Position numbers and translations under genes: made by a program. The notes under the pieces were generated by a model. It had not been told where the DNA came from. It saw only the letters and a list, made by a program, of their open reading frames with translations, and searched no databases. Below are positions 85 to 39,934 of a DNA stretch of 40,228 nucleotides, one piece after another; positions within the stretch are counted from its first letter, which is position 1; each line of letters begins with the position of its first letter. Source of the DNA: Chitinophagaceae bacterium (lineage in GTDB: Bacteria; Bacteroidota; Bacteroidia; Chitinophagales; Chitinophagaceae); contig JACSRW010000014.1 of assembly GCA_014879565.1 (NCBI GenBank), forward strand, positions 1 through 40,228, written 5' to 3'.

Positions 85-711
85 CTATTTTCTTACTAAA
101 AAAATTCCGCCCAGCAGCACCAGGCCAAATATAATAAGGATGGCCCCATTTATCCGGTTCATGATATGGATATTATGGGGCGTGAGTTTATTCCGGATTT
201 TACCGGCGAGAAAAACTTTCAGCAGGTCGGCCAGCAGCACCAGGATCAGGGCCGTGGTATAGATGATAATCTTATGCCGGGTGGAGAAACGCAGCAGGGT
301 ACCGGAAATGGTAAACCAGAGAATGATCATTCCGGGATTCATCAGGTTCATAAAATAACCGGACAGGGAAATTTTCAGGAGATCTCTTTTCCGGTGTTTG
401 AAGACCAGTTTCCCGTCTTCATTCAGTTTGAGTTTTTTAAAATACAGAAAGTAAACGCCGAAGAGCATCAGCAATACACTGCCCGCGATACCAATCGGTT
501 TTTCAAAGGCAGTGAGCTGGAGAAAGGTTTCGGTGAAAACGGTGGAAAGCAGTACCAGGGTAATATCGCTGGCCGATACACCAAATGCGAAGGCCAGGCC
601 TCCCTTATGCCCGTTACTCAGGCTTTGTTTGATAACGGAAAAAAAGATCGGGCCGACGGAAAGACTCAGCAGCAGACCGAGGGTCAGACCTTTTAAAACG
701 GCTTCAGGCAT
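85..711 (-). CDS. LysE/RhtB-family amino-acid exporter
   Basis: A 208-residue polytopic inner-membrane protein of the LysE/RhtB translocator superfamily, which exports amino acids or related small metabolites. The N-terminus has the family pattern (hydrophobic helix, then SVGPIFFSVIKQSL), about six membrane segments, and a charged cytoplasmic loop near residues 92-112. Length is normal (about 205-220). An exact TAnnTTTG promoter element lies five bases before the ATG, so the mRNA is probably leaderless. The promoter overlaps the first heptamer of the neighbouring repeat array. The substrate cannot be told from sequence. Confidence 0.88.
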   Translation of the reverse strand: MPEAVLKGLTLGLLLSLSVGPIFFSVIKQSLSNGHKGGLAFAFGVSASDITLVLLSTVFTETFLQLTAFEKPIGIAGSVLLMLFGVYFLYFKKLKLNEDGKLVFKHRKRDLLKISLSGYFMNLMNPGMIILWFTISGTLLRFSTRHKIIIYTTALILVLLADLLKVFLAGKIRNKLTPHNIHIMNRINGAILIIFGLVLLGGIFLVRK

Positions 712-716
712 GAAAA

Positions 717-724
717 CAAAAGTA
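717..724 (-). promoter_or_regulatory. -7 promoter element of the LysE-type gene
   Basis: Reads TACTTTTG on the minus strand, an exact match to the Bacteroidota -7 consensus TAnnTTTG. It ends five bases before the ATG at 711, so transcription would begin at or next to the start codon. It overlaps the heptamer array beginning at 722. Confidence 0.6.
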
Positions 725-749
725 CGAAGTACGAACTACGAAGTACGAA
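722..749. repeat. Heptamer array A-left (4 x GTACGAA type)
   Basis: Four exact-length tandem 7-mers: GTACGAA, GTACGAA, CTACGAA, GTACGAA. The array lies 14 bases past the stop codon of the four-helix-bundle gene (764-1120) and is the inverted partner of 1181-1208. The two arrays enclose that gene. Confidence 0.95.
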
Positions 750-763
750 ATGAAAGCCGTCTG

Positions 764-1120
764 TTAAGAATTTTTTATTCTTGACCTGGTGCTGGTAATG
801 GAAGCAACTAGTATTTTTAAAATGGCTGTTCCTTCATCAATAAGCAGATTTATTCTTACTGAAAATTTTTCATTAAACCGATTTAACAGCTCCAGAAAAT
901 ACAGTGTTTCATCTGCTTCTTCCTCAGCAATTTTGAGTTTATTGATAAAATCTGCGTCTGATTTAGCACGTTTTGCGGCCCTGTAATTGGCGCCTATCGA
1001 GGAAGATGACCTGATGAGTTGGCTGGTATAAGCTTTGTTAAGTTGATTTTCGGGGAGATCGCGTATTAGCGTTGCTACTTCAACTGCAAAGTTGAAAGTT
1101 CTTTGTTTTAAATCATTCAT
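764..1120 (-). CDS. Four-helix-bundle protein (23S rRNA intervening-sequence protein family)
   Basis: A 118-residue, almost fully helical protein. It matches the four-helix-bundle/IVP family (often annotated S23 ribosomal protein): an N-terminal helix with VATLIRDLPENQ, then SQLIRSSSSIGANYRAA, then an acidic helix (KLKIAEEEADETLYFLELL). The family is named from ORFs inside spirochaete 23S rRNA intervening sequences and is structurally related to the Avd accessory protein of diversity-generating retroelements. Its function as a stand-alone gene is unknown. No rRNA gene or reverse transcriptase is nearby. Inverted heptamer arrays at 722-749 and 1181-1208 flank it symmetrically, 14 bases after the stop and 60 bases before the start, so it may be the cargo or driver of a small repetitive element. 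Confidence 0.88.
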   Translation of the reverse strand: MNDLKQRTFNFAVEVATLIRDLPENQLNKAYTSQLIRSSSSIGANYRAAKRAKSDADFINKLKIAEEEADETLYFLELLNRFNEKFSVRINLLIDEGTAILKILVASITSTRSRIKNS

Positions 1121-1180
1121 AGAAGGTTCAGGTTTATAGCGGTAATCTTTCAGGCAGAGCGTATCAAACTTGCCGGACGT

Positions 1181-1208
1181 TTCGTACTTCGTATTTCGTA
1201 GTTCGTAC
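1181..1208. repeat. Heptamer array A-right (4 x TTCGTAC type)
   Basis: Four tandem 7-mers: TTCGTAC, TTCGTAT, TTCGTAG, TTCGTAC. Read in reverse complement this is the same unit as array 722-749, so the pair forms inverted arms around the four-helix-bundle gene. It lies 15 bases past the stop codon of the GH3-family gene. Confidence 0.95.
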
Positions 1209-1223
1209 TTCTTAATTGCTCCC

Positions 1224-2756
1224 TCAAACCTCTCCTGTATTCAAATACCTCTCCCATTCCTCCAGCATCTTTCCTTTCATCACCCGGGGAAATTTGTGCT
1301 GGCTGCCGAGTTTGCCCTTGAGTTCCATAAAGTGCAGGAACTTTTCTTCGGGAAGAATTTCGAGGAAGACCTCTTTCAGGGCGCTGTCTCTCTCTGTGGC
1401 ATAATCGTCATTTAAGGCGCGCAGGTGGAAATCAATCCGCTGGCGGACTGCTTCGGGATCGAGGGTATCATTGGTGCCGATATACCAGCGGTGTGCGAAA
1501 AAGTTCTGGTAAGGGAAACCTACTACGGTGTATTCCGGAATACAGGCATTGAATTCGTCACTGACCATTTCAATCGCCTTGTTCATATTGTCTACACTCA
1601 AGTGTTCGCCGGTAAGACTGAGGAAGTGTTTGGTGCGGCCGGTGATCACCACTTCATTCCGTTCCAGGTCGGTGAATTTCACAGTATCGCCAATCAGGTA
1701 ACGCCAGGAACCTGCATTGGTACTCATCAGCAGGGCATACTCTTTTCCTTCCTCCACCTCATGGATCATTTTAGCATCGGGATTGGCCACTATATGCCCG
1801 TCGTGATCAAAATTCTTATCATCAAAGGGTACAAATTCAAAGAAGATATTATTGTTCAGGATCAGTTGCATGCCTTTGGCATGCTCCCGGGTTTTGTAGC
1901 CGATAAAACCCTCGCTGGAGAGATAATTTTCAATATAGACGATGGGTTTGCCCAGCAGCCGCTCAAAGCCTTTTTTATAGGGCTCAAACGCCACCCCGCC
2001 ATGGACAAAAAAGCTGAAGTTGGGCCAGATATCATGAATATTTTTCACCTTGTAATGCTCAATCACCATTTCCATACACATCTGGCACCAGGCCGGTACC
2101 CCGACAATATAACCGATATCCCATTCTTTCGCGTGCTCAACGATTTCGTGGAGTTTTTGGTTCCAGTCGCTCATCGCCGCAATCCGCCCGCCGGGTTTGT
2201 AAAAGGTCTGGAACCAGAACGGTCTTTTTTTCGCGAGAATACCACTGAGGTCACCGGCGTACCAGCCGGCTTTGCCTTTTTTCAGATCCGTAGCTCCGCC
2301 CAGCATCAGGAAACCCTTGGTCATGGCTTTTTTATTGGCCTCTTCGTATTTGATCAGGCTTATAAGCTGGCGGATATAATTGATCGTATTGCTGCGCAGC
2401 AATTCGCTGGTAACGGGAATGTATTTACTGGCGGCTTCGGAAGTACCGGAGCTGAGCGCGTAATACTTGATCTTTCCCGGCCAGGTTACATCAGGTACGC
2501 CGTCGAGGGTTTTTTTCCACCACTCTTCATAGATCTTATTGTAATCATGTACGGGTACCAGTTCCTGGAATTTTTTGCCGGGATGTTTGCTCAGCAGGGC
2601 CTCGTCAAAATGATAGCGCTGGCCGAATTCGGTAAAGCGGGCTTTCTTCAGCAATTTCTTCAGCACCCGCAACTGCTGCCGGCGTGCGTCGTTGGGAGGC
2701 AGACGCAGGGCAGCGGCAATCGCTTTCGGAATCCTGATATCAATAATCGTGGCCAT
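1224..2756 (-). CDS. GH3 auxin-responsive-promoter family protein (acyl-adenylating)
   Basis: A 510-residue cytosolic protein of the GH3 family, part of the acyl-adenylate-forming superfamily. Plant members join amino acids to acidic hormones; the role of the common Bacteroidota members is not established. The ATP-binding motif I is visible as YYALSSGTSEAASKYIP (SSGTS at residues 102-106). A later motif is YLSSEGFIGY, and the region with LIGDTVKFTDLE and ITGRTKHFLSLTGEHLS is the typical C-terminal hinge. Length is normal for bacterial members. It begins with ATG at 2756, about 20 bases past a promoter-like element. It is probably monocistronic, because the next gene downstream is separated by a repeat array. 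Confidence 0.9.
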   Translation of the reverse strand: MATIIDIRIPKAIAAALRLPPNDARRQQLRVLKKLLKKARFTEFGQRYHFDEALLSKHPGKKFQELVPVHDYNKIYEEWWKKTLDGVPDVTWPGKIKYYALSSGTSEAASKYIPVTSELLRSNTINYIRQLISLIKYEEANKKAMTKGFLMLGGATDLKKGKAGWYAGDLSGILAKKRPFWFQTFYKPGGRIAAMSDWNQKLHEIVEHAKEWDIGYIVGVPAWCQMCMEMVIEHYKVKNIHDIWPNFSFFVHGGVAFEPYKKGFERLLGKPIVYIENYLSSEGFIGYKTREHAKGMQLILNNNIFFEFVPFDDKNFDHDGHIVANPDAKMIHEVEEGKEYALLMSTNAGSWRYLIGDTVKFTDLERNEVVITGRTKHFLSLTGEHLSVDNMNKAIEMVSDEFNACIPEYTVVGFPYQNFFAHRWYIGTNDTLDPEAVRQRIDFHLRALNDDYATERDSALKEVFLEILPEEKFLHFMELKGKLGSQHKFPRVMKGKMLEEWERYLNTGEV

Positions 2757-9812: not shown

Positions 9813-9840
9813 AAGAACCAAAATACAAGATCCAAGAACC
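9813..9840. repeat. Heptamer array B-left (AAGAACC/AAGATCC type)
   Basis: Four tandem 7-mers: AAGAACC, AAAATAC, AAGATCC, AAGAACC. It lies 22 bases upstream of the ATG at 9791 and forms an inverted pair with 9882-9956 across a 41-base spacer. Confidence 0.85.
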
Positions 9841-9881
9841 AACTTTCTTACTCCGTAATAAATTCTGAATGGAGGGTCATT

Positions 9882-9956
9882 GGATCTTGGCTCTTCGGTT
9901 CTTGGCTCTTTGGTTCTTTGGTTCTTGGATCTTGGATCTTTGTTTCATTGGTTCTT
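9882..9956. repeat. Heptamer array B-right (GGTTCTT/GGATCTT type)
   Basis: About ten tandem units of 7 bases with occasional 8- and 9-base units, for example GGATCTT, GGCTCTT, TGGTTCTT and GGATCTT. Its reverse complement gives AAGAACC/AAGATCC, the unit of array 9813-9840. It lies seven bases past the cmoA stop codon (9964). Confidence 0.85.
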
Positions 9957-10771: not shown

Positions 10772-11128
10772 ATGAAAAAAGTATACCACCTGGCCAACTG
10801 CACCACCTGCCAGGCCATCCTGGCGGAAACGGCCCTGGCAAAAAAGGGATTTCTGCTACAGGATATCAAAACGGAGAAGATTACACCCGCCCAGCTCGAT
10901 GAAATGAAAAAACTGGCAGGCTCCTATGAAGTTTTATTCAGCCGCAGGGCCCTGAAATACAAAGCACTCGGCCTGAAGGATAAACAATTAAGTGAAAAAG
11001 ACTACCGGAACTATATCCTGGAAGAGTACACGTTCCTCAAACGCCCCGTTGTTATCAGCGGCAACCGCATTTTTATCGGCAGTGAGAAGAAAACCGTGGC
11101 GGAGCTGAAAGCGGGGAGTGGGGAGTAG
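10772..11128 (+). CDS. ArsC/Spx-family thioredoxin-fold protein
   Basis: A 118-residue cytosolic protein of the ArsC/Spx/YffB family. It has the N-terminal strand YHLANC and a CXXC pair (Cys10 and Cys13 in ANCTTCQAI), as in Spx rather than the single-Cys ArsC site. The later KRPVVISGNRIFIGS is the conserved cis-proline region. True arsenate reductase activity is doubtful because no ars genes are nearby and the family is mixed; redox or regulatory roles are as likely. It has a purine-rich AAAGGAAG ribosome-binding site before the ATG. The last four codons (Gly-Ser-Gly-Glu) and the TAG stop are encoded by the heptamer array that follows. Confidence 0.82.
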   Translation: MKKVYHLANCTTCQAILAETALAKKGFLLQDIKTEKITPAQLDEMKKLAGSYEVLFSRRALKYKALGLKDKQLSEKDYRNYILEEYTFLKRPVVISGNRIFIGSEKKTVAELKAGSGE

Positions 11129-11168
11129 TGAATGGAAAGTAGTGAATGGAAAGTAGGGAGGGGGAAAG
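11113..11168. repeat. Heptamer array C-left (GGGGAGT/GGAAAGT/AGTGAAT type)
   Basis: Eight consecutive 7-base units beginning GGGGAGT, GGGGAGT, AGTGAAT, GGAAAGT, AGTGAAT, GGAAAGT; the last two are degenerate. The array supplies the final codons and the stop of the ArsC/Spx-like gene. It is the inverted partner of 11229-11256 across about 60 bases. Confidence 0.93.
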
Positions 11169-11228
11169 AGAACTATATTTCAAAAGTCGGGGGACTCATT
11201 GTATAAAGTTCATTTCTGCTTTCGGCCC

Positions 11229-11256
11229 ACTTTCCATTCACTACTCTCCACTTACC
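11229..11256. repeat. Heptamer array C-right (ACTTTCC/ATTCACT type)
   Basis: Four 7-mers: ACTTTCC, ATTCACT, ACTCTCC, ACTTACC. They are the reverse complement of array 11113-11168. The array lies two bases past the stop of the convergent transporter gene. The two arrays could fold into a long imperfect hairpin acting as a bidirectional terminator. Confidence 0.93.
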
Positions 11257-11258
11257 TC

Positions 11259-12929
11259 TTACATAAGTAATAAAATCAGCAGCTGCGCCGCCACAATCCG
11301 TAAAATCATGGTCAGCGGATATACGGTGGCATAAGTAACGGAGGGAATATCGCTTCCGGCCATCCGGGTGGCGAAGGCCAGGGCGGGCGGGTCGGTGGAG
11401 GCACCGGCCAGCAGTCCGCAGATTTCGAAATAGGTTTTTTTGAAATACTTATGCGCGATAAAGCCTACAATCAGCAGGGGCACCGTTGTAATAATCACCC
11501 CCATGCCTATCCAGCCCCAGCCACTTCCGTCTGCAAATGCAATGGAAAGGTTTTTACCGCTGCTCAGTCCCACACTGGCGAGGAAAAGACTGATACCGAT
11601 TTCCCTTACCATCAGGTTGGCGCTATGCGTGGTATAATTGTTCAGGTAAAACAGGTTGCCGAAACGGCTCAGGGTAAGCGCGATGATCAGCGGACCACCA
11701 GCCATACCGATCTTCACGGCAACCGGCATATTCGGAAAATGGATCGGAACACTGCCAAGAATCACGCCCAGTACAATTCCCATAAAGATGGGTGCCAGGT
11801 CGGGTACTTCCAGTTTTTTCAGGGAATTACCCAACGCTTCTGTTACCACCTGTACCCCTTCTTCCGTACCTACTACTTTTACTGTATCACCCAATTGCAG
11901 GAAGATATCTCCGTGCGGCACCATTTCTATACCGGCGCGCTGCAGACGGGTGAGGGTGAACTCCTGTTGTTGTAATTCGGGAATATCTCCGATACGGCGA
12001 TGGGTCACTGCCGACCGGGTTACCACGATATGCCGGGAGATCAGATCACTGCCCTTGGCGTTTTTCAGGTTCATATTGCTGGGCGGTCCGATCAGGAGTT
12101 TGAGTTGTTCCATTTCCTGTTTGGATGCGACAACCAGCAATACATCATTTTCAGAGAGCACCAGGTCGGGGGTGGGGGTAATGATTTCCCCGTTGTGAAA
12201 CATCCGCGATACCACCACCGGTTCTTTCAGCATGTCAAACAGTTTCCGCAGGGGCTGTCCCACCAGCTGTTTGTTTTCCAGGCTCAGGTGCAGCGATACC
12301 GGTTTTTTGGCCCGTATTACATCGAGTTTGCGGTGCAGTTCCTGTTCGGATTCAATATTGACCCGGAAAATTTTCCGCAGAATGATCAGCGATCCGATAA
12401 TGCCGAATACACCGAGCGGATATGCGCAGGCATAGGCCAGGGTGATCAGGGATTTATCCGCTCCGCTGGCATGCATATCACTGACCGCAGCCTGGGCAGC
12501 AGCCAGACCGGGTGTATTGGTAACAGCACCGCTCATCACACCGGCCATCACGGAAATACTGTTATGGCTGAGCAGGTAGAGAATAACGGTTATGATAACA
12601 CCGATAGCTACGATGGCCAGGGCCAGCAGGTTATTGGCCATCGCATTTTTTTTCAGGGAAGCCCAGAAACCGGGTCCTACCTGTAAACCGATGGAATAAA
12701 CAAACAGGATCAACCCGAACTCCCGTAGAAAATGTTCGGTATTGGCATCTGTTTCCACCCCGAAATAAGAGAAGATAAGGCCGGCAAACAAGACCCAGGT
12801 GATCCCCAGTGAAATCCCCGCAACCCGGATACGTCCCATCCAGATACCGATAGCGATCACCAGTCCATACACAATTACTGACTGGGCAATGGAGGTCTTG
12901 GTGAAAAGATCATATAACCAGGCTGGCAT
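11259..12929 (-). CDS. AAE-family transporter (AspT/YidE-type, with two RCK_C domains)
   Basis: A 556-residue inner-membrane transporter of the aspartate:alanine exchanger/YidE-YbjL family. The order is an N-terminal membrane half (residues 15-190, with LFVYSIGLQVGPGFW and GAVTNTPGLAAAQ), two cytoplasmic TrkA-C/RCK_C regulatory domains (about 215-290 and 295-375), and a second membrane half (385-555, with LFLASVGLSSG and GASTDPPALAFA). The internally repeated halves and normal length indicate an intact gene. Substrates of YidE-type members are mostly unknown, probably dicarboxylates or amino acids. It follows pckG on the same strand but is separated from it by a strong hairpin. Confidence 0.9.
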   Translation of the reverse strand: MPAWLYDLFTKTSIAQSVIVYGLVIAIGIWMGRIRVAGISLGITWVLFAGLIFSYFGVETDANTEHFLREFGLILFVYSIGLQVGPGFWASLKKNAMANNLLALAIVAIGVIITVILYLLSHNSISVMAGVMSGAVTNTPGLAAAQAAVSDMHASGADKSLITLAYACAYPLGVFGIIGSLIILRKIFRVNIESEQELHRKLDVIRAKKPVSLHLSLENKQLVGQPLRKLFDMLKEPVVVSRMFHNGEIITPTPDLVLSENDVLLVVASKQEMEQLKLLIGPPSNMNLKNAKGSDLISRHIVVTRSAVTHRRIGDIPELQQQEFTLTRLQRAGIEMVPHGDIFLQLGDTVKVVGTEEGVQVVTEALGNSLKKLEVPDLAPIFMGIVLGVILGSVPIHFPNMPVAVKIGMAGGPLIIALTLSRFGNLFYLNNYTTHSANLMVREIGISLFLASVGLSSGKNLSIAFADGSGWGWIGMGVIITTVPLLIVGFIAHKYFKKTYFEICGLLAGASTDPPALAFATRMAGSDIPSVTYATVYPLTMILRIVAAQLLILLLM

Positions 12930-17367: not shown

Positions 17368-17395
17368 AAAGGGGCTTCCGTCAGGAAGCCCCTTT
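17368..17395. terminator. Bidirectional intrinsic terminator
   Basis: A 12-bp perfect stem (AAAGGGGCTTCC with GGAAGCCCCTTT) closes a GTCA loop, with A-rich sequence before and T-rich after. It can serve both the OmpA-like gene and the convergent cytochrome operon. Confidence 0.9.
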
Positions 17396-17399
17396 ACTT

Positions 17400-17448
17400 A
17401 TTATTCATTATTCATTACTCATTACTCATTATTCATTACTCATCACTC
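17400..17448. repeat. Heptamer array D (ATTACTC/ATTATTC type)
   Basis: Seven exact-length tandem 7-mers: ATTATTC twice, ATTACTC twice, ATTATTC, ATTACTC, ATCACTC, followed by a partial unit. It runs to the stop codon of the cytochrome c gene at 17453. On that gene's sense strand the unit is GAGTAAT, the same family as the array after pcrA. Confidence 0.95.
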
Positions 17449-17452
17449 ATTC

Positions 17453-34054: not shown

Positions 34055-36427
34055 ATGAAGGATTATTTAAGCGGCCTGAACGAAAGGCAGAAAGAAGCCG
34101 TGTTGCATAAGGATGGGCCGATTATGATTGTGGCCGGGGCCGGCAGCGGAAAAACCAAGGTACTGACCACCCGTATCATTCACCTGATGGCAACTCACCG
34201 GGTGGATGCATTTAATATTCTCGCGCTCACATTTACCAACAAGGCGGCGAAGGAAATGAAGGAAAGGGTCGAAAAGATTTTAGGCGACGGCGAAGCCCGT
34301 AATCTGTATATCGGCACTTTCCACTCCGTATTTGCCCGTATCCTGCGGTTTGAGGCGGAAAAAATAGGCTATCCCCGCAACTTCACCATTTACGACACCG
34401 ATGACGCCAAAAGTGTGGTGAAGGCCGTGGTGAATGAGATGAACCTGGATGACAAACATTATAAGCCCAACCTGGTTTATAACCGTATTTCATCGGCGAA
34501 AAACGCCCTGGTGGGACCGGCCGAGTACCGGAATGATTATGCCATCCAGCAGGAAGATATGCGGGCCAACCGCCCGGCTATCGGGCAGATCTATGATGCC
34601 TATGTAAAGCGCTGCTTCCGTAACGGGGCGATGGATTTTGACGACCTGCTGCTTAAGTTTTATGAGCTCCTGAAAAATGTGCCGGAAAGCCTGGCCCGTT
34701 ACCAGCATAAGTTTAAGTATATCCTCATTGATGAGTACCAGGATACCAACCCGGCCCAGTATGAGATCATCAAACTCCTGGGTGCCATGCATGAAAACGT
34801 ATGTGTGGTGGGAGATGATGCCCAGAGTATTTATTCCTTCCGCGGGGCCACCATCCAGAATATCCTGCAGTTTCAGAAAGATTATGAGGAAGTGAAGATT
34901 GTAAAACTGGAACAGAATTACCGCAGTACCAAAAGTATCCTGCATGTGGCCAATGAGGTAATCAAAAAGAATAAAGGGCAGATAGAGAAAGTGCTGTTTA
35001 CCGATAACAGCCAGGGAGAAAAAATCCGCCTCGTGCGTACGATGACGGATAATGATGAGGGCAAGTTTGTGGCTGATACCATCCAGGAACAGCGGCTGCG
35101 CAATCATTACAGCAATAAGGATTTCGCGATTCTTTACCGCACCAATGCCCAGAGCCGTGCCTTTGAAGAATCGCTCCGCCGGATGGGAATACCCTATACC
35201 ATCTACGGGGGTATCAGTTTTTACCAGCGGAAAGAAATCAAAGACCTGGTGGCCTACCTGCGGCTGATCGTCAATCCCAATGATGAAGAAGCCCTGAAAA
35301 GGATAATCAATTATCCGGCGCGGGGTATTGGCAAAACCACCATTGATAAACTGATACTGGCTGCCAACCAGCAGAACGTATCCATGTGGCAGATCCTGGA
35401 AAAAGCTGCCGCCAACGGGTTCAGGGCCGGTACCCTTTCCGCCCTGGAGGATTTTGTGCTGATGATGAAAAGTTTTGCCAGTATGCTGCAGAAGCATAAT
35501 GCCTATGAAGTCGCTTTTCATGTGGGTAAGCAGACCAATCTGGTGAAGGAACTGTTCAACGATAAAAGTGCAGAAGGGGTGCAGCGGTATGAAAATATCC
35601 AGGAATTACTCAACTCCATCAAGGAGTGGACGGAGAGTCCGGATACCGATGAGGGAGAACTGGTGGATAAGAGCCTGGCTTCCTATCTGCAGCAGATTAC
35701 CCTGCTGACTGATGCGGATGAAAAAGATCCTGATGCAGATACGGTGAAACTGATGACCATTCATGCGGCCAAGGGACTGGAGTTTTCCTGTGTATTCGCG
35801 GCCGGACTGGAAGAAATGCTCTTCCCCAATGCCATGGCCATCAATACAAGGGAAGAACTGGAAGAGGAAAGAAGGCTGTTTTATGTGGTGATCACCCGGG
35901 CCAAGCAACGGCTCTGGATTACCTATGCCAATACCCGCTACCGTTTTGGGCAGCTGGTGCAGAACGATCCCAGCCGCTTTATTGAAGAAATACCCGAAGA
36001 TCATCTTGACCGCAGTTTTGCCGGCGGCGGCACCCGCAGCCAGGGGCTGAACAACTGGAGCGGCGGAAATGCTTTCAATCGCATGAAGGGCTGGGGCAAT
36101 GAGGATAAATACAATGATGTAAGGGAAGCGGAAAAGAAATACGGAGCGCCCCCTTCACAAAAGGGCACAAACACCCCTTCTTACCTGGCTCCCAAAACCA
36201 CTGCTCCGAAAGTGGTGGAACATACCCCTTCGGCAGATTTTGTGGCCAGTGATACATCCAATCTGCAGGTGGGGCAAAAAGTGGAACACCAGAAATTCGG
36301 TTTCGGGGAAGTGATGAAGATGGAAGGCGCCGCACATAACCCGATTGCCACAGTGAAATTTGAACATAACGGGGAGAAGAAGATAATGCTGAATTATGCG
36401 AAGCTGAGGATTGTGAATGACGAATAA
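34055..36427 (+). CDS. pcrA: UvrD/PcrA-type ATP-dependent DNA helicase
   Basis: A 790-residue superfamily-1A 3'-5' helicase for repair and replication restart. Visible motifs are the Q motif (LSGLNERQKEAV), Walker A GAGSGKT (28-34), Ia LTFTNKAAKEM, Walker B LIDEYQDTN, motif III GDDAQSIYSFRGA, motif IV QNYRS, motif V TIHAAKGLEF and motif VI VVITRAKQRLW. The C-terminal tail with GQKVEHQKFGFGEV is the Tudor-like RNA-polymerase-binding module of PcrA/UvrD. Length is slightly above PcrA (about 730), normal for Bacteroidota. The final Glu codon and the TAA stop are the first unit of a heptamer array. Confidence 0.95.
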   Translation: MKDYLSGLNERQKEAVLHKDGPIMIVAGAGSGKTKVLTTRIIHLMATHRVDAFNILALTFTNKAAKEMKERVEKILGDGEARNLYIGTFHSVFARILRFEAEKIGYPRNFTIYDTDDAKSVVKAVVNEMNLDDKHYKPNLVYNRISSAKNALVGPAEYRNDYAIQQEDMRANRPAIGQIYDAYVKRCFRNGAMDFDDLLLKFYELLKNVPESLARYQHKFKYILIDEYQDTNPAQYEIIKLLGAMHENVCVVGDDAQSIYSFRGATIQNILQFQKDYEEVKIVKLEQNYRSTKSILHVANEVIKKNKGQIEKVLFTDNSQGEKIRLVRTMTDNDEGKFVADTIQEQRLRNHYSNKDFAILYRTNAQSRAFEESLRRMGIPYTIYGGISFYQRKEIKDLVAYLRLIVNPNDEEALKRIINYPARGIGKTTIDKLILAANQQNVSMWQILEKAAANGFRAGTLSALEDFVLMMKSFASMLQKHNAYEVAFHVGKQTNLVKELFNDKSAEGVQRYENIQELLNSIKEWTESPDTDEGELVDKSLASYLQQITLLTDADEKDPDADTVKLMTIHAAKGLEFSCVFAAGLEEMLFPNAMAINTREELEEERRLFYVVITRAKQRLWITYANTRYRFGQLVQNDPSRFIEEIPEDHLDRSFAGGGTRSQGLNNWSGGNAFNRMKGWGNEDKYNDVREAEKKYGAPPSQKGTNTPSYLAPKTTAPKVVEHTPSADFVASDTSNLQVGQKVEHQKFGFGEVMKMEGAAHNPIATVKFEHNGEKKIMLNYAKLRIVNDE

Positions 36428-36456
36428 TGAGTAATCAATAATGAATAATGAGTGAT
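36422..36456. repeat. Heptamer array E-left (GAGTAAT/GAATAAT type)
   Basis: Five 7-mers: GAATAAT, GAGTAAT, CAATAAT, GAATAAT, GAGTGAT. The first contains the pcrA stop codon (36425-36427). It is the inverted partner of 36561-36595 and the same unit family as array 17400-17448. Confidence 0.93.
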
Positions 36457-36560
36457 GGCTGAGCAGTCATTAAAGGTTTGAAACAGTTTCTATAAGCAAG
36501 CAGTTAATAAAACATTTCAGCAATCAGCGTATTCAAATCTGTAAAAACGCTTCGGTGTTT

Positions 36561-36595
36561 ACTCATTACTGATTTCTCATCACTCATTACTGATC
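36561..36595. repeat. Heptamer array E-right (ACTCATT/ACTGATT type)
   Basis: Five 7-mers: ACTCATT, ACTGATT, TCTCATC, ACTCATT, ACTGATC. It is inverted relative to 36422-36456. The 104-base spacer (36457-36560) holds no gene and no obvious RNA. Confidence 0.92.
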
Positions 36596-36663
36596 ACTCC
36601 TTCCCCTTCTTATTTTAACAGCAAACAAACTTTTCCACCCCTATTTTCGTTTCCCTTTTCCAC

Positions 36664-39876: not shown

Positions 39877-39879
39877 GGT

Positions 39880-39928
39880 GGGGAGTGGAGAGTGGAGAGT
39901 GGAAAGTGGGGAGTGGGGAGTGGAAAGT
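39880..39928. repeat. Heptamer array F (GGGGAGT/GGAGAGT/GGAAAGT type)
   Basis: Seven exact tandem 7-mers: GGGGAGT, GGAGAGT twice, GGAAAGT, GGGGAGT twice, GGAAAGT. It starts three bases after the fur stop codon and shares its unit with array 11113-11168. Confidence 0.95.
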
Positions 39929-39934
39929 GGGTTT

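Follow-up and report, generated by a model that had tools for sequence, protein, structure and literature searches.

The described systems closest to the locus reported here are the intervening sequences (IVSs) of 23S rRNA, tandem heptamer arrays between genes, REPINs with their RAYT genes, and DGRs. Among the heptamer arrays, we take those of cyanobacteria to be what earlier authors called STRRs. RAYT is a tyrosine transposase; no catalytic site is known for IVP, the protein family of rRNA IVSs. IVP is described as a protein without known function, and that of Xanthomonas campestris is stated to be pentameric (excerpts of PMC4990558). The same excerpts place rRNA IVSs in helices that formerly had a small tetraloop, report tandem GACAGAT heptamers upstream of the S23p ORF in the Coxiella 23S IVS with an RNase III cut at the start of the first heptamer, and credit Ralph and McClelland with the idea that IVSs are mobile elements. 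IVP ORFs in rRNA insertions are also reported from CPR bacteria (excerpts of PMC11270868).

Heptamer arrays have a literature of their own. Excerpts of PMC4692102 list 186 GGGAATC arrays in X. campestris ATCC 33913, mostly of four units and with 70 convergent pairs. In Nostoc PCC 7120, according to the same excerpts, inverted pairs are scarce and the plasmids carry no arrays; no general link of heptamer repeats to mobile elements was seen there. TAACTGA arrays were proposed as translational regulatory sites (excerpts of PMC4679880). PF05635, the Pfam family of IVP, is the most common Pfam in one set of DGR neighbourhood data, where it is said to be Avd-like (excerpts of PMC10053308).

The locus described below shares with the rRNA IVSs of Leptospira and Coxiella the protein family, an ORF in a stem-closed loop and sporadic presence (excerpts of PMC4990558), and differs in that the unit lies between protein genes and has arms that are arrays with a locus-specific repeat. 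It resembles the arrays of cyanobacteria, Xanthomonas and Beggiatoaceae in its tandem 7-mers between genes, and those of Xanthomonas also in having mostly four units, often in convergent pairs (excerpts of PMC4692102 and PMC4679880); unlike here, no link to IVP is stated in those excerpts, and the terms 'S23' and 'four helix' are absent from PMC4692102. With REPIN/RAYT systems it has in common inverted short units that form hairpins, a tie to a gene and many gene-less copies (excerpts of PMC3116915), whereas the IVP gene has no tyrosine transposase match (PF05635 only) and its repeat drifts from locus to locus. The separate pieces are already in print; searches of openly licensed PMC papers found none that connects IVP genes to inverted heptamer arrays lying between genes for proteins.

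An IVP gene between inverted heptamer arrays

The window is the whole 40,228-nucleotide stretch that was analysed, from a Chitinophagaceae genome (G000) that holds six PF05635 genes. Four GTACGAA-type heptamers at 722..749 on the plus strand (GTACGAA, GTACGAA, CTACGAA, GTACGAA) and four at 1181..1208 on the minus strand that are their inverted copy (TTCGTAC, TTCGTAT, TTCGTAG, TTCGTAC) enclose an IVP gene of 118 aa at 764..1120 on the minus strand. Reading of the sequence and the inverted-pair and 14-mer searches bore out the initial annotation, which had described four heptamers before and four inverted copies after a single IVP gene, with margins of 14 and 60 bases. With at most three mismatches the 14-mer search returned 10 matches in the window, 7 of them inside the two arrays, as compared to a mean of 1.5 and a maximum of 8 in 100 window shuffles. 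The unit fills the complete spacer (712..1223, minus strand) between the stop of a GH3 family gene at 1224 and the start of lysE at 711. The GH3 gene (1224..2756, minus strand; PF03321, PF23571, PF23572) lies upstream of the IVP gene and is co-directional with it; lysE encodes a LysE-type translocator (85..711, minus strand; PF01810). When positions 712-1223 (minus strand) are folded as RNA, the arms form the closing stem (z −3.92, 0/100 shuffles equally stable), as they do in the RNA of a unit between argC and argD (z about −4), and, as in rRNA IVSs, an inverted stem encloses the IVP ORF. An rRNA location was rejected on two grounds: Rfam at gathering scores matched no family in the window or 11 other loci (12 sources), and the flanks are protein genes. 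At the contig start, positions 18-36 are adapter-like in sequence, presumably a Nextera adapter, and the first bases are therefore probably non-genomic.

The ORF matches PF05635 (23S_rRNA_IVP) at 60.6 bits (cut-off 33.8), its sole Pfam match, and TIGR02436 'four helix bundle protein' at 81.2 bits (cut-off 24). Its AlphaFold2 model has four helices (mean pLDDT 95.9) and best matches PDB entries 2rld (E 4e-6) and 2gsc (E 4e-3), IVP proteins each deposited with five chains, the former being BT_0352 of the commensal Bacteroides thetaiotaomicron and the latter from X. campestris. A weaker match is the DGR protein Avd (4dwl; E 0.17, probability 1.00, TM 0.70-0.76). The relation to DGR accessory proteins suggested at the outset stands as a similar four-helix fold, but a retroelement link beyond that fold is unsupported, since PF00078 reverse transcriptase (RT) was undetected in 34 of the 44 IVP-bearing genomes searched. 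RT was detected in 11 of 58 genomes, and not in the IVP-rich G001, G021, G031 and G015, and dependence on a DGR or another RT was rejected on these counts; the one RT detected in G000 is on contig C3, the window being C41, and no RT lies beside the IVP gene. In one genome (G049, contig C24, 2609-4155) about 0.6 kb separates an RT match and a PF05635 match, which together may be a genuine DGR and its Avd.

Of the 296 genomes that were sampled from the phylum of the window, 232 have PF05635 genes. Single genomes can carry as many as 16 IVP genes. The IVP gene is under purifying selection: among the four of five pairs for which dN/dS was computed (the members of the fifth are unequal in length), it was 0.066 for orthologues in the argC-argD spacer and 0.23 for one close pair, and two further pairs had saturated synonymous sites with pN of 0.05 and 0.095. 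The gene before IVP is co-directional in 66 of the 70 callable loci (of 80), as against 243/328 other genes, which suggests expression by read-through, as in rRNA IVSs. On cyanobacterial plasmids the IVP gene is opposite to both annotated neighbours in 3/6 loci.

Inverted repeat arrays at IVP loci of many phyla

Across the sampled loci, which come from many phyla, IVP genes typically have the arm-gene-arm layout. In G000, inverted short-repeat arrays flank, by eye, all six IVP genes, and the repeat differs from gene to gene: AAGTTAT, GGGGAATGGAAAGT, GAGCCGG/GAGTCGG, TTGAGG (period 6 to 8), GTACGAA and CCAAGAA; at L002, of the GGGGAATGGAAAGT type, the right arm is weak. Their inverted-repeat (IR) scores range from 18 to 32, five of them above the null 95th percentile of 18.2. 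When relatives are included, 24 of 35 IVP loci exceed the 95th percentile of a cross-locus null that contains related loci. The same percentile was exceeded by 57 of 80 IVP loci from named genome records, two of which (L168, L196) come from one genome. By record title, the source of all phylum labels for these records (many of them MAGs), the 80 loci are mostly Bacteroidota, together with KSB1, Poribacteria, several Proteobacteria, Acidobacteria, Akkermansia, Spirochaetales, Planctomycetaceae and Ignavibacteriae; the label of L217, titled Limnohabitans, is doubtful because of ∼78% DNA common to Flavobacterium-type records.

The initial annotation had proposed counting IVP genes between inverted 7-mer arrays in related genomes, and they are enriched there. 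IR scores of at least 17 were found for 65/80 IVP loci and 33/177 neighbouring ORFs (odds ratio 19), the controls being ORFs with an ATG start and about 80-300 aa, predicted by a simple greedy caller and limited to three per locus. Four of the 33 high-scoring controls are IVP genes themselves, which leaves 29/173. A lag-7 score of at least 10 was reached by 67.5% of the 80 IVP loci and 11.9% of control ORFs; at lags 4-6 and 9-13 the share was at most 3.4% in both groups, and lag 8 reached 10% in IVP loci. A replicate sample gave 19/30 loci with IR of at least 17 against 12.5% of cross-locus pairs, related loci again being part of the null; 14/30 had lag-7 scores of at least 10 and a few arms had period 8. 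Scores below 17 were obtained at 15 of the 80 named and 11 of the 30 replicate loci.

Viral IVP loci (24 of 34) reached IR 17 in 18/24 cases (null 95th percentile 16.2), some with arms that are not heptamer-like. Long inverted heptamer arrays are present at 4 of 6 cyanobacterial plasmid loci, drawn from 42 records (two Nostoc, Pseudanabaena, Geminocystis), and the other two have no clear arms; on the two Nostoc plasmids GGGAGTA and GGGAACA arrays flank the IVP genes. A plasmid of Pseudanabaena galeata carries, between cas6 and cas4, an IVP unit with long TTAGCTT-type arrays (L344, 1489-1848). Some IVP arms have, by eye, a period of 8 or 6 in place of 7 (L349, L357, L375; L004).

Each arm consists of about four to five imperfect short repeats, usually 7-mers. 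The repeat core has a median of 4.4 units (quartiles 3.6 and 5.0) in the 168 of 266 arms with clear periodicity, and both arms are periodic in 86 of 133 loci, a set that leaves out L029 and L069 because of stops inside the frame. Arm similarity is 0.750 within loci and 0.498 between loci, and the strand towards the gene is poor in C (8.7%) relative to G (30.5%; 86 loci). Arm mismatches at 117 loci comprise 186 G.U and 208 A.C pairs; without a G.U excess, selection for sense-RNA pairing is not supported, and we rejected it. IVP protein similarity and arm sequence are weakly coupled (non-syntenic rho 0.189, permutation maximum 0.179). Strict protein-repeat specificity was rejected on this weak correlation and on Poribacteria paralogues with 71-79% protein identity that differ in repeat.

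Comparable flanks were also seen at other genes. Inverted heptamer arrays lie on both sides of a SIS-domain gene (L215, 8145-8715) and of an ORF that is HAD-like by eye (L096, 1647-2602). An ORF at L163 (11178-11754) has near-perfect inverted palindromic REP-like flanks; by eye its motifs are RAYT-like, and a Pfam search returned no match at 0.001. At GxxExxY (PF13366) loci (L116-L145) flanking inverted repeats exceed the 95th percentile of a null that contains related loci in 16/30 cases, with repeats of different type (CACAGAGAA, or TGTCTGAACCATGATTTGG...GGATTA). Among 58 genomes searched, GxxExxY is missing from all 14 IVP-less genomes and 8 others. GxxExxY genes seem parallel in layout with other repeat types, and the principle may exceed one family.

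Presence and absence at shared spacers and gene-less arrays

At one spacer some relatives carry a whole arm-gene-arm block and others lack it. Of 30 GH3-lysE loci read, three (G000, G027, G012) have orthologous IVP genes flanked on each side by GTACGAA arms. In 13 the gap measures 1-147 bp and gave neither an IVP match nor a lag-7 score above 7, and 14 have another neighbour. The arrays are not kept at this spacer when the gene is absent; arrays conserved without the gene would, according to the initial annotation, have spoken for random association. The other refuting outcome named there, a general lack of flanking heptamers in the family, did not appear either.

Three further spacers were read, with argC, argD and dihydroorotase identified from Pfam domains and gene-less classes judged by eye. 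At the argC-argD spacer (L256-L285), argC lies upstream in 29 loci, and in 18 of these the gap is 1-9 bp. One IVP unit is common to G000 and G012, whereas the unit of G015 is unrelated to it, with 46% identity and different arms. Hairpins without a gene were read in G027 (79 bp) and, of CACAGAG type, in G021 and G030; five loci differ otherwise. Different relatives thus have at least three kinds of insert with a hairpin in this tight operon spacer. Between radC and DUF3467 (26 of 30 fetched loci used) five genomes carry orthologous IVP genes: the arms are AGTC-type in G000, G027 and G021, of TAGTAGT type on both sides in G012, and in G030 the contig ends after the first arm and part of the IVP gene. 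At this orthologous locus the repeat type has changed on both sides in G012. The spacer is occupied by an unrelated IVP unit in G031, by a gene-less hairpin in G001 and by a lone array in G026; one locus is without DUF3467 and 17 have a short gene-less spacer. Among these 17, the radC spacer of the IVP-less G016 is repetitive by eye.

Between the amidohydrolase (dihydroorotase-like) and MutS-like genes, 21 of 30 loci were used, the rest being distant or partial, and 18 have both genes. Four carry IVP units with CCAAGAA-like arms, six gene-less GTGAATAG-type hairpins, two other hairpin-like spacers, two degenerate spacers, and four have 4-39 bp. Seven of these spacers were then scored against shuffles: for the six called hairpins, 0/100 were as hairpin-like as those of G024, G026, G021 and G020 and 2/100 each for G032 and G015, and for G009, which had been called degenerate, the count was 8/100. 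Altogether, unrelated IVP units occur in 2/4 spacers and gene-less hairpins in 3/4. The bare spacers are too short or too divergent for placing insertion ends in a check for target-site duplication.

The inverted-pair search identified three gene-less pairs in the window. At 9816..9944 an array of CCAAGAA/TTGGTTC type, the type of the same-genome IVP unit L006, pairs 9816-9842 with 9918-9944 (89% complementary), and the array at 9880-9940 scores 43 against the genome's own IVP arms, a score equalled by 0/20 random sets in either control. An inverted repeat of GTGAATGGAAAGTA type at 11106..11263 (11106-11140 with 11229-11263, 86% complementary) was not registered as a strict 7-mer array in lag-7 scans of the window. 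A GAGTAAT-type array at 36416..36599 pairs 36441-36470 with 36565-36594 (73% complementary); GAGTAAT arrays of G000 match own-genome IVP arms no better than random sets do. Arm matching also located single lag-7 arrays at 17394..17450 (TTATTCA/ATTACTC type, no match to own IVP arms) and 39878..39930 (GGGGAGT/GGAGAGT type).

Gene-less hairpins with the repeat of an IVP arm occur elsewhere in G000, as for REPINs and RAYT (a GTACGAA pair at L051, 5320-5394, and the CCAAGAA pair at window 9819-9940), but a clear own-arm match was found for only 5 of 24 G000 arrays. Mean match to own-genome IVP arms, relative to equal-sized random sets, was 19.2 v 14.0 in G000, 16.7 v 13.3 in G027 and 16.1 v 12.0 in G021, the arm sets being incomplete for G027 (6 of 9) and G021 (8 of 13). 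At a level of 1/20 or better, both random controls were outscored by 11 of the 43 arrays without a gene (G000 5/24, G027 3/9, G021 3/10). The argC-argD hairpin of G027 matches that genome's IVP arms no better than random, and the MutS-spacer hairpin of G021 matches its own weakly. Other inverted pairs had been suggested to be versions of the unit without a gene; such pairs exist, and gene-less hairpins do occupy spacers that hold units in relatives, but clear repeat sharing is limited to the 11/43. The link between arrays and IVP is thus partial, which lowers the odds that IVP acts in trans.

Across genomes, lag-7 arrays numbered 0 in 552 kb from seven IVP-less genomes and 42 in 932 kb from nine IVP-bearing genomes, at least two of the 42 being IVP flanks (L042). 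Seven of the nine had at least one; none was found in G046 (one weak IVP match) or in the 18 kb sampled of G009. Most of the genomes without IVP are small; the correlation is therefore confounded with genome size, and reduction of the genome may be the shared cause; the larger IVP-less genomes are G019 (2.6 Mb) and G056 (2.5 Mb).

Proposed origin of the hairpin cassettes

The recurrent gene-in-hairpin layout, its gain or loss between the same neighbours in related genomes and its gene-less look-alikes point to an overlooked kind of tiny insertion element. On balance we read the feature as an intergenic relative of the 23S rRNA IVS, a hairpin cassette with an IVP gene between two inverted arrays. 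The IVP gene would be expressed through read-through from the preceding gene. The protein, a five-subunit ring in the solved relative XCC0516, would bind the arms by spacing and shape, not exact sequence; we give binding itself an even chance. Because the arms of paralogues differ, the repeat type changes at an orthologous locus and coupling to the protein is weak, we read the arms as renewed by slippage and kept matched to each other, perhaps by fold-back template switching, with spacing and inversion kept and sequence free. Gene-less hairpins may, at least in part, be non-autonomous derivatives aided by IVP in trans, like REPINs that depend on RAYT. An active role of IVP in spreading is a rather doubtful addition, and our estimate for it was lowered slightly after a recount of arm matching. 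The likeness to a cargo-bearing repetitive element noted in the initial annotation is strengthened by the family-wide inverted heptamers and by presence and absence at spacers, but no instance of transposition was observed.

In the main alternative, only the gene is mobile and settles in pre-existing hairpin loops, intergenic heptamer hairpins or rRNA helices, the arms being its targets. Paralogous IVP genes of Poribacteria lose DNA homology at or just outside the ORF and have different arms, and an IVP pair of G265 is 68.5% identical over little more than the ORF, also with different arms, as this explanation predicts; no recent transposition was caught in either set of paralogues, and a search of the G265 pair and six other regions for near-identical recent copies gave no clean insertion ends. 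The former tetraloop helices of rRNA IVSs (excerpts of PMC4990558) and the gene-less hairpins in 3/4 of the spacers that hold units elsewhere fit it as well. However, at the four spacers relatives without the gene are, by eye, also without a hairpin of the unit's repeat type, and Aequorivita antarctica has two IVP genes at different sites, both of AGTATTG type, with homology extending 68-70 bp past the match, so that part of the arm is shared as well. We consider mobility of the gene alone unlikely.

Less probable again is that IVP is a host regulator and the arrays are the sites it binds, in transcripts or DNA of many genes including its own, the sites having multiplied through slippage and ordinary recombination. 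The purifying selection, co-occurrence by genome, the repeat type that some gene-less arrays share with own-genome IVP arms and the proposed regulatory role of TAACTGA arrays (excerpts of PMC4679880) would all agree with a regulator, yet up to 16 IVP genes per genome, a patchy distribution and the finding of independent units in a single spacer are more element-like. As for chance, by which heptamer arrays would be common intergenic slippage products beside which IVP genes merely happen to lie, arrays without IVP do exist in the window and elsewhere in the genome, and arrays flank a few ordinary genes (the SIS-domain gene at L215); the matched controls, the complementarity within loci and the lack of arrays in the IVP-less samples speak against it, and with the controls and genome-level samples in hand we rejected it as very improbable.

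A broader version of the cassette reading is speculative and in our estimate no likelier than mobility of the gene alone: IVP cassettes would be distinct, phylum-crossing minimal mobile elements without an enzyme of their own, whose ring protein reads period-7 arrays by geometry, at about one repeat per subunit, and promotes copying of the hairpin by host replication. The protein would drive the cassettes and, with them, the long-known heptamer arrays found in cyanobacteria, Xanthomonas and Bacteroidota, and rRNA IVSs would be cassettes that landed in rRNA.

The tie between the IVP family and inverted 7-mer arrays gives a protein without known function a testable physical partner. It also offers an origin for rRNA intervening sequences and a cause for the heptamer arrays that have been described separately in cyanobacteria, Xanthomonas and Beggiatoaceae.
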